This document shows, piece by piece, positions 3,565 through 51,435 of a DNA stretch of 64,000 bases. Position numbers and translations under genes: made by a program. The notes beneath the pieces were generated by a model that made no database searches, was not told the DNA's origin, and saw nothing but the letters and a program-made list of their open reading frames with translations. This DNA is from Halorientalis sp. IM1011 (GTDB taxonomy: Archaea; Halobacteriota; Halobacteria; Halobacteriales; Haloarculaceae): assembly GCF_001989615.1 (NCBI RefSeq), contig NZ_CP019067.1, positions 1,736,001 to 1,800,000 on the forward strand, written 5' to 3'. Positions within the stretch are counted from its first letter, which is position 1, and every line of letters begins with the position of its first letter.

Positions 3565-3682
3565 ATTCCGCAGTCCGAACGCGTGCGATTAAACGATGGC
3601 GCTTTGGGTGATGCCTGCACCAGCGGTGTCGCTGCCGCCCGCGACCGACACGCTTTCCGCGCTCGCCCGCGGAGGCTCCGAC

Positions 3683-4405
3683 ATGTTCCCCGAGTTCGAG
3701 GTCGTCCCCGCCGTCGACATGCAGGACGGGCAGGTCGTCCAGCTCGTCGGCGGCGAGCGCGGCACCGGCACCGAGTACGGCGACCCCGTCGAGGCCGCCC
3801 GCCGCTGGGTCGACGCCGGTGCGTCCACGCTCCACCTCGTCGACCTCGACGGCGCGTTCGAGGGCGAACGCGAGAACGCCCCCGCCGTCGACGCCATCCT
3901 CGACGACGTGGACGTGGACGTACAGCTGGGCGGCGGGATCCGCACCGTCGCCGACGCCACCGACCTCTTGGAGCGCGGCGTCGACCGCGTCATTCTGGGT
4001 ACCGCGGCCGTCGAAAATCCCGAGATCGTCGCGGAGATCAGCGACGAGCATCCGGGGAGCGTGACGGTCAGCCTCGACGCCAAGGACGGCGAGGTCGTCG
4101 TCTCGGGCTGGACCGAGGGCACCGGACTGGACCCCGCTGAGGCCGCGACCCGCTACGAGGAGTTGGGAGCCGGCGCGATCCTCTTTACCGACGTGGACGT
4201 GGAGGGGCAACTCGAAGGCGTACGGACCGATCCGGTTCGGCGGGTCGTCGAGGCCGTCGACATCCCGGTGATCGCCAGCGGCGGCGTGGCGACCATCGAG
4301 GACGTGCAGGCGCTCGAAGCGGCCGGCGCGAGCGCCGTCGTCGTCGGCAGTGCCCTCTACGAGGGGCAGTTCACGCTGGAAGAAGCGATGGCCGCAATCG
4401 AGTAG
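3683..4405 (+). CDS. hisA: HisA, phosphoribosylformimino-5-aminoimidazole carboxamide ribotide isomerase
   Basis: This 240-residue (beta/alpha)8 barrel carries out the fourth step of histidine synthesis, an Amadori rearrangement of ProFAR. The two catalytic aspartates are Asp12 (VPAVDMQDGQ) and Asp170 (LFTDVDVEG). The phosphate-binding loops GGGIR and SGGVA are also present. I chose the ATG at 3683 because GGAGG stands at 3671-3675 and the homologous N-terminus begins there; an in-frame ATG at 3596 would add 29 unrelated residues. Its TAG stop directly abuts the stop codon of the convergent rhodanese gene. Confidence 0.95.
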   Translation: MFPEFEVVPAVDMQDGQVVQLVGGERGTGTEYGDPVEAARRWVDAGASTLHLVDLDGAFEGERENAPAVDAILDDVDVDVQLGGGIRTVADATDLLERGVDRVILGTAAVENPEIVAEISDEHPGSVTVSLDAKDGEVVVSGWTEGTGLDPAEAATRYEELGAGAILFTDVDVEGQLEGVRTDPVRRVVEAVDIPVIASGGVATIEDVQALEAAGASAVVVGSALYEGQFTLEEAMAAIE

Positions 4406-10684: not shown

Positions 10685-11359
10685 TCAGGTCGTCCGGAAC
10701 GCGCGGTCGCCGGCGTCGCCGAGGCCGGGGACGATGAAGCCGTCGTCGTCGAGGTGGTCGTCGATGCTGACCGTCAGGAGGTCGACTTCGGGGAACGCCT
10801 CGGTGACGCGGGTGACGCCGGCGGGGGCGCTGACCGCCGAGAGGACGAACAGGTTCTCGGGGTCGCCCGCGGCCGTGACCCGTTCCAGCACGGCGGTCAT
10901 GGTCGACCCGGTCGCCAGCATCGGGTCCGCGACGATGACCGTGTCGTCCTCGGTGATCTCGGGCATCTTCTCGTAGTCCACGTCGATAGGGAACTGCCCG
11001 TCATCGTCCATGCCGGCGCTCTCGTCGCGGCCGGCGCTGATGACCCCCTGTTTCGCGTGCGGGAAGGCCTTCAGGAGCCCCTCGACGAACGGCGTCGCCG
11101 CGCGGAGGACGTTGATGATCACCACGTCGTCGAGACCGGTGACGCGCTCGCCCATCGTGTCGGTCAGCGGCGTCTCGATCTCGACGTACTCGGTGTCCAT
11201 CGCGCCGTCGATGATATCGTAGCCACAGATCCGGCCGAGTTTCACCAGTCCCTTGCGGAAGGCGACCTGTTCGGTCTCGACGCTACGCAGGTCCGAGAGC
11301 GTGTGCTTCGCCAGCGCGTGCGTGACGAGATACGCGTCGCCGCGTTGCTCGATAGCCAT
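10685..11359 (-). CDS. upp: Uracil phosphoribosyltransferase
   Basis: This 224-residue pyrimidine salvage enzyme makes UMP from uracil and PRPP. The PRPP loop [11 protein letters not shown] lies near residue 147. The uracil-binding region near the C-terminus ([18 protein letters not shown]) is also present. An acidic insert after [14 protein letters not shown] is typical of halophilic versions. The gene starts at the ATG at 11359. pyrE, the de novo counterpart, is at 40158-40694. The 108 bases between its end and the convergent yigZ gene show nothing notable. Confidence 0.95.
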
Positions 11360-29017: not shown

Positions 29018-29056
29018 ACCCGGGCTAGGGGGCCGTCGCCCAAAATCGCGTCGGTC

Positions 29057-29241
29057 CACCTTTTTCGCGTCGGGTTGCGCGCCGCTGGCGCGCAACCACT
29101 CCTTGAAAAACGTCTCCAGAAATCAGAAATTTCTGGCGGGCTCGCGAGAGCCTTGCTCTCGCGAACGTGGGCGAAAAAAGCGGAATTCGCGCAGTCGGCG
29201 CGAATTCCGTGACCCGGCGGCCAGCGGGCCGCCGGATGCTT
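29057..29241. repeat. Modular multi-hairpin intergenic element, copy 1
   Basis: Five hairpins lie in 185 bases. H1 is at 29073-29083/29087-29097, H2 near 29116-29136, H3 at 29142-29151/29155-29164, H4 at 29182-29192/29198-29208, and H5 at 29214-29222/29227-29235. Conserved unpaired links include CACCTTTTT at the left, GAAAAACGTCTCCAGA between H1 and H2, and GAACGTGGGCGAAAAA between H3 and H4. It shares this order with copy 2 at 41271-41419, and two stems differ by compensatory pairs. It fills most of the 348-base gene-free stretch between divergent genes. Confidence 0.8.
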
Positions 29242-34014: not shown

Positions 34015-34272
34015 ATGGGACTGTTCGACGCCGACGAATCCGGGTCCGACTACGACCCCGAGGAGTTCGAGGTCACCGACGAGTCGCCCTTCGAAGGCGA
34101 TCCCGACGACGGAGGGCCGGATCTCGCACTCGCCCGTATCCACGACGAGAATCTGGACGGCACGCTCAAACGCGTCATCGACCACAAGGCCGGCGTGATC
34201 GTCTACGCCTACGACACTGGCCTTGCGGCCGTCCCCATCAGCCAGACGGATCTGCAGATCGAACGGAAGTAA
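34015..34272 (+). CDS. Small conserved haloarchaeal protein of unknown function
   Basis: This 85-residue acidic protein has a disordered N-terminal half and a small beta-type C-terminal part (LKRVIDHKAGVIVYAYDTGLAAVPISQ). No motif for metal or nucleotide binding is visible. It starts 45 bases after the HTH regulator in the same direction, so co-transcription is likely. I do not recognise the family with certainty. Confidence 0.65.
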   Translation: MGLFDADESGSDYDPEEFEVTDESPFEGDPDDGGPDLALARIHDENLDGTLKRVIDHKAGVIVYAYDTGLAAVPISQTDLQIERK

Positions 34273-34320
34273 GGATGTCGCGGTGCGGCAGCGGTGCGGT
34301 GGCGGTCACGACTAGCATCC

Positions 34321-34401
34321 GGCGCGCAGCGCGCGCCGGTTCACCGTCAGAGCGAGGCTCTGACGAGCCCCCGCTCGTTCCCTGCGGTCACTCGCGGGAA
34401 C
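34321..34401. terminator. Stack of hairpins between convergent genes, probable bidirectional terminator
   Basis: Three perfect stems follow one another: GGCGCGC/GCGCGCC (34321-34337), GTCAGAGC/GCTCTGAC (34346-34364) and GTTCCC/GGGAAC (34377-34401). A run of five T at about 34434-34438 lies just before the end of the glutaredoxin gene. On the minus strand the sequence CCGGATGCT next to the first stem also occurs beside hairpin H5 of the element at 29057-29241. Confidence 0.45.
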
Positions 34402-34447
34402 ACTCAACGCGAGTGAAACGAGCGTCGAGGTAGTTTTTGAACTAAAT

Positions 34448-34696
34448 TTAGTTGCCGTACGTGTTCTCGAGGTACTCCACGATGTCGTCGGACTCGGGCA
34501 TCCCCTCGACGCCGTTGTCGGGGTCGACGAGGACGGGGACGCCGGTCTGGCCGCTGACTTCCTCGACTTCGGTGCGCTCGCTGTGACTGCGCGGGACCAT
34601 GTGAGACTCGTAGTCCAGATCCAGTTCGTCCAGTTTCTTCGTGACCTTCGCGCAGTACGGACAGCCGTCCAGTTCGTAGAGTTCCAGGTTTGCCAT
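34448..34696 (-). CDS. Glutaredoxin-family protein (CPYC)
   Basis: This 82-residue protein has the dithiol motif CPYC at residues 12-15 (ELDGCPYCAKVTKKL) and the cis-Pro GVPVLVDPDNG. It resembles the product at 23726-24007 along its whole length (DLDYES..., DIVEYLENTYGN). A disulfide reductase or thiol carrier role in the cytoplasm is expected, probably using gamma-glutamylcysteine or a thioredoxin-like system. It starts at the ATG at 34696. Confidence 0.88.
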   Translation of the reverse strand: MANLELYELDGCPYCAKVTKKLDELDLDYESHMVPRSHSERTEVEEVSGQTGVPVLVDPDNGVEGMPESDDIVEYLENTYGN

Positions 34697-41225: not shown

Positions 41226-41270
41226 GGTACCTCTCCTTTGGTCGTCACCGTGCTTAGGCTTTTGGTCTCC

Positions 41271-41419
41271 CACCTTTTTCCAGCGGGGGTACGCTCTCTC
41301 CGTTCGCGCACCCCCGAGCAAAAACGTCTCCAGAGATCGGAGATATCTGCCGGGCTCGCGGGAGCATCGCTCCCGCGAACGTGGGCGAAAAAGCGGAACT
41401 CGCGCGGCGCGCGAGTTCC
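41271..41419. repeat. Modular multi-hairpin intergenic element, copy 2
   Basis: The same plan as copy 1 is seen: CACCTTTTT at 41271-41279, H1 (GGGGGT at 41285-41290 against ACCCCC at 41310-41315, extended by CGC/GCG), and the link AAAAACGTCTCCAGA. H3 follows at 41356-41365/41369-41378, then the link GAACGTGGGCGAAAAA, and H4 at 41395-41405/41409-41419. Against copy 1, H3 has an A-T pair replaced by G-C, and H4 has T-A replaced by C-G. H5 is absent. Confidence 0.8.
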
Positions 41420-41467
41420 GTTGCTGTGCTGGTGTCGTCCAATCGTCGAGGTAGCGTAGCGGCCGGA

Positions 41468-50223: not shown

Positions 50224-51435
50224 GTGGAGTACCGTCGAACCGCCGTTATCAAGCTCGACACGCCTGAAGGCGCGGATACACACTTTCGGGAGACTGTCGA
50301 GCAATTCAAATACTGTTCCAACACCGCGAGCGAGTGGTGCTGGCACGGCGACGACGGCTACCACGTCACATCCAAGGCGAAGGCCGAAGATGCGCTGTAC
50401 GACCAGCTACGCGAGGACACAGAGTTGACCGCGAATCTCGTCCAGAAGGGGATTCATCAGGCCGTCGAAGCCATCAAAAGCGGCGTCGAACGACTCAAAA
50501 ACGACCAAAGTACGTCTCGTCCGACGTTCACGGCTGATACCGCTATCTACGACAAGCGAAGTGCCACGTTCCACCGTGACCACGTTTCGCTATCAACACC
50601 GGACGGACGAATCGAGTGCGATTATATTCTCCCTGAGAATCCCGACACACCGCCGACAAAGTACGTCACAGACGAGGACTACGAGTTTCGGCGGGCAACA
50701 CTGCATCGACGTGACGGCGACTGGTATCTTCATGCGTCGATGCTCAAAGTCGAGGACGACGACACCGAACCTACCACCGGGCACAGAACAGTCCTCGGTG
50801 TGGACCTCGGTGTGAACCAACTCGCGGTCGCTTCGACCGGGCGGTTCTGGTCAGCAGACGAGTTCAACCACTGGAAGCGAGAGTACGAGAACCGGCGTGG
50901 CGACCTCCAGCAGTGTGGAACGCGGGCGGCTCACGAGGCGATAGCAGGCGTCGAGCGCAAAGAGGACGGACGCTTCGAGATATTCCTGCATCGTGTCGCC
51001 AACGAGATCGTAGCCGAAGCCGTCGAACACGACTGTTCGCATATCGTGTTCGAGGACCTGACCGACATTCGTGAGAACGTGCCAGAAGCGTCGTGGCACC
51101 ATCTGTGGGCGTTCCGTCGCCTCTACGAGTACGTCGCCTACAAAGCCAGAGAGCAGGGCGTCGAAGCCGTCCAAGTGGACCCACGGAACACGTCAAAGCG
51201 GTGTTCGACCTGTGGATTTACCCACGACGACAACCGCCACGGCGAGGACTTCGAGTGTCTGGATTGCGGCTACCAGAACCACGCCGACTACAACGCTTCC
51301 AAGAATATTGGCCTTCAGTATCTCCGGCGTCGGCAAAACGCAGACGACGGAGGCGCACCCGTAGACGTGCGCTTGAATCGCGGGACGTTGAACGTGAGTG
51401 GAGAGTATAACCTTCCCGCCTCATCCGAGGCGTAG
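50224..51435 (+). CDS. tnpB: RNA-guided endonuclease TnpB
   Basis: This 403-residue protein is the ancestor type of Cas12. The RuvC residues Asp194 (LGVDLGVNQLAVAS), Glu277 (IVFEDLTDIRE) and Asp355 (HADYNASKNIG) are intact. A zinc ribbon (CSTC...CLDC, about residues 326-345) sits between the last two. The start is a GTG at 50224 (VEYRRTAVIKLD); the open frame extends upstream, but that part is the hairpin of the left end. Codon use and A/T content differ from neighbours, which fits transfer. It appears complete and possibly active. Confidence 0.92.
   Translation: MEYRRTAVIKLDTPEGADTHFRETVEQFKYCSNTASEWCWHGDDGYHVTSKAKAEDALYDQLREDTELTANLVQKGIHQAVEAIKSGVERLKNDQSTSRPTFTADTAIYDKRSATFHRDHVSLSTPDGRIECDYILPENPDTPPTKYVTDEDYEFRRATLHRRDGDWYLHASMLKVEDDDTEPTTGHRTVLGVDLGVNQLAVASTGRFWSADEFNHWKREYENRRGDLQQCGTRAAHEAIAGVERKEDGRFEIFLHRVANEIVAEAVEHDCSHIVFEDLTDIRENVPEASWHHLWAFRRLYEYVAYKAREQGVEAVQVDPRNTSKRCSTCGFTHDDNRHGEDFECLDCGYQNHADYNASKNIGLQYLRRRQNADDGGAPVDVRLNRGTLNVSGEYNLPASSEA

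Follow-up and report, generated by a model that had tools for sequence, protein, structure and literature searches.

PATEs of Haloquadratum walsbyi are non-coding haloarchaeal elements of high copy number that are present in some strains and absent from others, and they have palindromes near their termini and no terminal inverted repeats (PMC3119063). SMR-A short mobile repeats, also of Haloquadratum, are short hairpin elements that insert in the palindromes of other mobile elements (PMC3119063). Bacterial REPs are interspersed palindromes with a tetranucleotide (GTAG/CGTC) at one end; mismatches in their hairpins are needed for cleavage, their termini abut or often provide stop codons, and their arrays have been proposed to arise through circular intermediates (PMC3733652). 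MITEs, finally, are short, non-autonomous and interspersed.

The element described here was found in a window of 64,000 nucleotides of the Halorientalis sp. IM1011 genome (NZ_CP019067.1, positions 1,736,001 to 1,800,000). It shares with PATEs the features given for them above but differs from them (PMC3119063) in that its ends are unlike those of the resident IS605 elements, its location at gene 3' ends is exact, and it has gene-end direct repeats, tandem arrays and variable stems joined by fixed links. It resembles REPs in its palindrome with a tetranucleotide at one end, its interspersed copies and arrays, its hairpin mismatches and its frequent abutment to, or provision of, stop codons (PMC3733652). 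Unlike in REPs, however, the tetranucleotide is GTGG (ATGG in other genera) and is paired, the stems lack sequence conservation, and a stand-alone RAYT was not seen in this genome. The size, dispersal and apparent non-autonomy of MITEs are also found in the element, whereas their terminal inverted repeats and short, fixed-length target duplications are not. Only its inserted double-hairpin modules, of the H2-H3 type, seem similar to SMR-A as described; the element as a whole is not. A search against Rfam 15 at gathering and permissive thresholds gave no family above gathering for the element. The best sub-threshold match, to the whole model of sot2652 (RF02657; omega/sot RNAs of TnpB elements; 19.7 bits, E 0.016), was judged to be due to chance: the gathering score is 61, many positions are unpaired and no tnpB is attached.

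The element is both PATE-like and REP-like, yet a defining feature of each is missing: for the former, no homology to IS605 ends was found in this genome; for the latter, there is no GTAG/CGTC tag and no RAYT was seen. It is not a MITE, having no terminal inverted repeats, and it is absent from Rfam. The best reading is a REP/PATE-like element of a new kind.

Element copies in the window

A preliminary description had placed two copies at 29057-29241 and 41271-41419. Both exist with the sequences first given, as checked in the sequence, although the left edge of each lies one base earlier, where CCACC starts at 29056 and 41270 (Table 1). Copies 1 and 2 both match the links AAAAACGTCTCCAGA and GAACGTGGGCGAAAAA letter for letter. 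The description had also held that the stems change between the copies by paired changes. This holds for H3, where an A-T pair has become G-C, and for H4, where T-A has become C-G, both changes being real and at the stem positions reported for them. It does not hold for H1, since the two copies carry different hairpins there that are not related by point changes. H2 of copy 2 is an imperfect stem, and copy 2 is without H5 and carries another module at its distal end. The distal end that H5 forms in copy 1 has the family consensus GTGAACCG-hairpin-CGGATGCT. The third, decayed copy has kept H4/H5-like hairpins and the CGGATGCT end and has lost the core link.

Table 1. Positions of the hairpin element copies and their parts, numbered from the first base of the window.
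Feature	Position	Strand	Remarks	Basis
Copy 1, five hairpins	29056..29240	minus	structured strand is the minus strand; its 3' terminus GGTGG at 29060-29056	
Copy 1 terminal link CCACCTTTTT	29056..29065	plus	complement AAAAAGGTGG is the constant terminus	sequence
Copy 1 H1	29066..29105	minus	arms 29073-29083 / 29087-29097	stem positions and covariation
Copy 1 link AAAAACGT	29106..29113	minus	A5, partner of the terminal T5	
Copy 1 inserted double-hairpin module	29114..29164	minus	H2 29116-29136 and H3 29142-29164	
Copy 1 core link GAACGTGGGCGAAAAA	29163..29178	minus		
Copy 1 H4	29181..29209	minus	followed by a T run on the minus strand; intrinsic-terminator-like	
Copy 1 H5, distal end	29212..29240	minus	GTGACCCGG..CCGGATGCT	
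Copy 2, H1-H2-H3-H4 and other distal end	41270..41422	minus	insertion edge ...GGTCTC/CCACC	
Copy 2 terminal link CCACCTTTTT	41270..41279	plus		sequence
Copy 2 H1	41284..41316	minus	sequence unlike copy 1 H1	
Copy 2 H3	41356..41378	minus	TCGCGGGAGC/GCTCCCGCGA	sequence
Copy 2 core link	41377..41392	minus		
Copy 2 H4	41394..41420	minus		
Third copy, decayed	about 34240..34450	minus	3' of a gene's stop codon	

In copy 1, GTGG at 29167-29170 is a possible pairing partner of CCAC in the terminal link, as is A5 of T5. Copy 1 lies between divergent genes, for a DUF7536 protein and an AstE/AspA-type protein, and copy 2 between genes for a xanthine/uracil-type permease and a NifU-like protein. The three folding z-scores computed were -8.2, -8.1 and -6.7. 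Elsewhere in the window, the minus strand at 3697-3746 matched the Rfam Guanidine-II riboswitch above gathering (35.8 bits); lying antisense within a HisA-like ORF (3596-4405, plus strand), this match is most likely a false positive. A TnpB (Cas12f1-like_TNB) gene of an IS605-type element is located at about 51112-51309 on the plus strand.

Architecture of the element

Read on the minus strand of the window (the R form), the minimal element is H4 - TTTTTCGC - CCACG TTTTT - H1 - AAAAA GGTGG. Its terminal hairpin closes exactly at the element terminus, with CCAC pairing to GTGG across a G-G mismatch. Fuller copies carry GCATCCG-hairpin-CGGTTCAC before H4 as well as double-hairpin modules in linkers or loops. 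The H2-H3 part of the window copies is such an inserted module; simple two-hairpin copies are without it, and genome G212 carries this simple form at the site of copy 2. One edge, CCACC/GGTGG, is constant. Terminal inverted repeats are absent, the ends being CCACC.. and ..CGGATGCT or other modules, and palindromes lie near both termini, H1 at one end and H5 or H4 at the other. We are inclined to regard it as a non-autonomous element of the Haloarculaceae that is defined by its structure and not by the sequence of its stems.

An IS605 element of this genome has, in its left end, a double hairpin related to H2-H3. One IS605 is present in two copies (L336/L142 and L335/L141), of which one alone has another double hairpin inserted into the loop of its right-end palindrome, which resembles an SMR-A insertion in near-terminal palindromes (PMC3119063). 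A degenerate repeat, GCGGTCGCGGTGCGG, was also noted beside the distal end of many copies of the hairpin element (L037, L043, L046, L054, L058, L035).

A dispersed and mobile family

The element is a dispersed family that is spread through the Haloarculaceae. In the Halorientalis sp. IM1011 genome, the 14-base core was found at 23 sites exactly and at 29 with 0-1 mismatch, and controls gave 15 matches in total at up to 2 mismatches. About 27 of these copies are real: L031 and L053 are the same copy at a redundant contig end, and L059 is apparently a chance match inside a gene. The ends of this contig share about 20 kb, and the core matches at 11161 and 3372891 are one locus, so counts there are doubled. 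Each same-genus genome holds 10-32 matches to an 18-base form (up to one mismatch). The exact core occurs in 65 of 293 genomes of the order, mostly Haloarculaceae, against one control match. By pattern, i.e. by their links, 190 distinct copies were collected, and the AAAAAGGTGG terminus lies within 330 bases of the core in 177 of them. Viral contigs gave one exact core match, the copy 1 sequence was not matched in a plasmid collection, and a search of the open-access literature found no account of this hairpin element family.

The element is also mobile. Both window sites are vacant in some sister species. At the site of copy 1, G212, G250 and G162 have no element and G294 and G295 have a decayed one; at that of copy 2, the element is missing from G131, G250, G162 and G293 and present in G212, G294 and G295 (decayed in the last). 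Likewise, the sites at an sdhA-like gene and at etfA are empty in most of 57 family genomes; where the sdhA-like gene is followed by the element, it begins within a few bases 3' of the stop codon. Of the two identities first suggested, a structured non-coding RNA or a MITE/REP-like mobile element, the mobile half is upheld by the dispersed copies, the empty sites and the constant terminus, and the RNA half is not, no Rfam family having matched at gathering.

In other genera, related hairpin elements with the links CGCACTTTTTT, CCCACTTTTTT and CCCTTTTT lie at exactly the same stop codon of the sdhA-like gene (L273, L276, L287, L296), i.e. several subfamilies occupy this one site.

Gene ends, direct repeats and tandem arrays

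Copies lie at gene 3' ends, often 0-3 nt from the stop codon. Among 114 copies without flanking repeats, a convergent long ORF ends within 40 nt of GGTGG in 66 (0-3 nt in 41), and the control rate for the 40-nt criterion is 79 of 528. Both neighbors were called for 95 copies, of which 34 lie between convergent genes, 56 between tandem genes and only 5 between divergent ones. Inspection showed that roughly a dozen copies stand directly beside tRNA 3' ends (L031, L112, L128, L150, L155, L170, L197, L209 and others), and L031 has tRNA-like tails on both sides, as in att arrays.

About a third of the copies are marked by a directly repeated gene 3' end and by tandem arrays. A direct repeat between the left and right flanks passed the 99th percentile of the mismatched controls for 60 of 175 copies, and no target duplication was detected in the other 115. 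What is repeated after GGTGG is the upstream gene's 3' end, and the right-hand repeat begins 0-9 nt after GGTGG in all repeat-flanked copies. A classical short target duplication was rejected: the repeats are about 20 to 150 bp in length and not fixed. Units of [gene end + element] stand in tandem at etfA, argF, hisH and further genes, and the last gene end can encode another C-terminus (L162, L068). Differences between paired gene ends fall in the third codon position in 76 of 120 cases (p = 6e-11); therefore, much of the divergence arose while both ends were coding. For L130 and L098, the gene end of another species is a closer match to the fragment than the locus's own gene, and some second gene ends resemble alleles of other lineages. 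Where a copy is flanked by repeats, the second end departs from the gene through C-to-T changes or single-base insertions at positions 1-5 after GGTGG, and only there.

It is possible, if rather doubtful, that [gene end + element] units pass between species and enter the same gene by homology, whereby the recipient would gain a foreign end and a new terminator, its old end would become a relic, and the resident hairpins would be exchangeable cassettes held by the fixed links. No microhomology of GGTGG with the gene was seen at the start of the second end.

Pairing, kept mismatches and hairpin turnover

Covariation was tested in ungapped groups of copies of equal length, in which the pairs with the highest mutual information lay mostly on one antidiagonal and comprised up to five pair types. 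As a control, copies were thinned to under 80% identity and arms were exchanged between copies in 2000 trials. The observed pairing was reached by none of the 2000 arm swaps in the groups of 62, 66, 68 and 69 bases, and only rarely in smaller groups. Covariation is thus in excess, whereas its absence would have spoken against the preliminary description. Nor do the links vary as freely as loops, the other outcome that would have done so: they are far more conserved than the stems (about 2 bits per position versus 0.1-0.8 in most stem positions), partly by construction because the copies were gathered by their links. For H4, a perfect arm of at least 6 bp ends no more than 3 nt from T5 in 73% of copies versus 11% of shuffles.

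The pairing excess is thus real, but the statement that paired changes indicate selection was too strong, since hairpins are replaced as blocks at orthologous sites. Across 45 pairs of copies at orthologous sites, H1 identity was 0.66 versus 0.63 for random pairs, with flanks at about 0.90, a contrast that is somewhat inflated by the mostly coding nature of the compared flanks and the faster evolution of intergenic DNA. H1 and H4 change independently (H4 0.94 and H1 0.56 in L070/L107; H1 1.00 and H4 0.72 in L069/L080), and even where right flanks are 96-97% identical, the hairpins differ in length and sequence and still pair. Because hairpins at about 90% flank identity are as unlike as those of random copies, stems must be replaced as blocks, which can occur via template switching, exchange or re-insertion. 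Intragenomic gene conversion of H1 gave no clear excess, the best same-genome identity being 0.803 versus 0.782 (sd 0.011) with permuted labels.

The paired changes could accordingly have arisen with no selection on the fold, if template switching during replication or exchange between copies rewrites whole palindromes at once. We rate this explanation as a serious possibility that falls short of even. The turnover of H1 at orthologous sites and its independence from H4 favor it, as does the documentation of template switching as a source of multi-base compensatory changes (PMC8794818), and paired changes alone are no proof of selection because a block can be rewritten in one step. It explains the covariation but not the mobility and is compatible with a mobile element. 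Template switching, however, makes palindromes perfect, whereas 143 of 151 distinct copies retain the G-G mismatch and 94 of 151 the tandem G-A mismatches of the loop. Furthermore, the outer stem stays paired when the links change from one genus to another, with CCAC/GTGG altered on both sides to CCAT/ATGG, or to GCA/TGC, whose bases again appear to pair. The kept mismatches and these paired outer-stem changes are better evidence of selection on the fold than is covariation within the stems. G-G and G-A are structured mismatches. Because they are carried on the R form, R is probably the functional strand, and their retention points to a selected fold on the minus strand of the window.

Proposed mechanism and alternatives

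Taking the above results together, we lean towards a non-autonomous REP/PATE-like element whose folded strand is mobilized in trans, whose gene-end units re-enter by homology and which serves as a bidirectional terminator. The folded single strand would be recognized in trans by an HUH-type (IS200/IS605-like) transposase and cut at the GTGG foot, by analogy to the cutting by RAYTs at GTAG in bacterial REPs. We favor mobilization in trans by such an enzyme because the foot tetranucleotide, mismatches, adjacency to stop codons and arrays resemble REP/RAYT biology (PMC3733652). Should the far end be missed, the gene 3' end would be carried off together with the element. Homologous recombination may then bring this unit into a matching gene end of the same species or of a different one, yielding gene, element and second gene end, and repeated events would yield the tandem arrays. 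In a resident element, H4-T5 would act on one strand and CCACC-T5 on the opposite one, the two together forming a bidirectional terminator, a role suggested by the position of the element and by terminator-like minus-strand scans, and this role would make gene ends the tolerated site. Against this model, no transposase could be tied to the element; the five Y1 loci in the genome are all accompanied by TnpB genes, and their ends differ from those of the element. Copies without direct repeats call for no gene-end capture, and the 3-5 bases after GGTGG often match poorly between gene ends, which the model does not account for.

A different explanation is that the hairpins are a host-selected, cis-acting RNA structure of the 3' UTR or terminator, inherited vertically and immobile, so that presence and absence reflect loss. 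The coding-strand position at gene 3' ends with a terminator-like H4-T5, the mismatches kept on the R strand, the strong folding and the occupation of the same gene ends in several genera all agree with this explanation. We nevertheless consider it unlikely, as the site is empty in most family members, the gene-end duplications begin precisely at the GGTGG edge, some copies are away from gene ends (e.g. copy 1, between divergent genes) and Rfam has no match above gathering.

Quite unlikely, too, is an ordinary PATE, i.e. an IS200/IS605 element of the same genome that has lost its interior. Although the element is non-coding, has palindromes near both ends and no terminal inverted repeat, and has its double-hairpin module in common with the left end of an IS605 of that genome, this inner module is all that matches: the resident IS605 elements have ends other than CCACC.. 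and ..CGGATGCT, and gene-end duplications are no feature of PATEs as described (PMC3119063). An integration footprint of a tyrosine recombinase at gene or tRNA 3' ends, with the second ends as attL/attR and the element as minimal cargo, would account for the gene-end direct repeats, the copies that abut tRNA 3' ends and second ends that may be another allele, but it is very improbable given many unrelated target genes with no common crossover core, units of only 150-190 bp, the two thirds of copies that are repeat-less and a constant edge that belongs to the element and not to the target.

Implications

Covariation in these hairpins does not by itself amount to RNA function, which is relevant for annotators and for builders of RNA families. 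With orthologous sites, flanks of about 90% identity and unrelated perfect stems, the element offers a clean test case of selection versus one-step rewriting. If the trans-mobilized, gene-end model is right, a very common unannotated element shapes the 3' ends of Haloarculaceae genes, i.e. their terminators, C-termini and gene-end arrays, and it would provide a natural route for short, homology-bearing DNA units between species.
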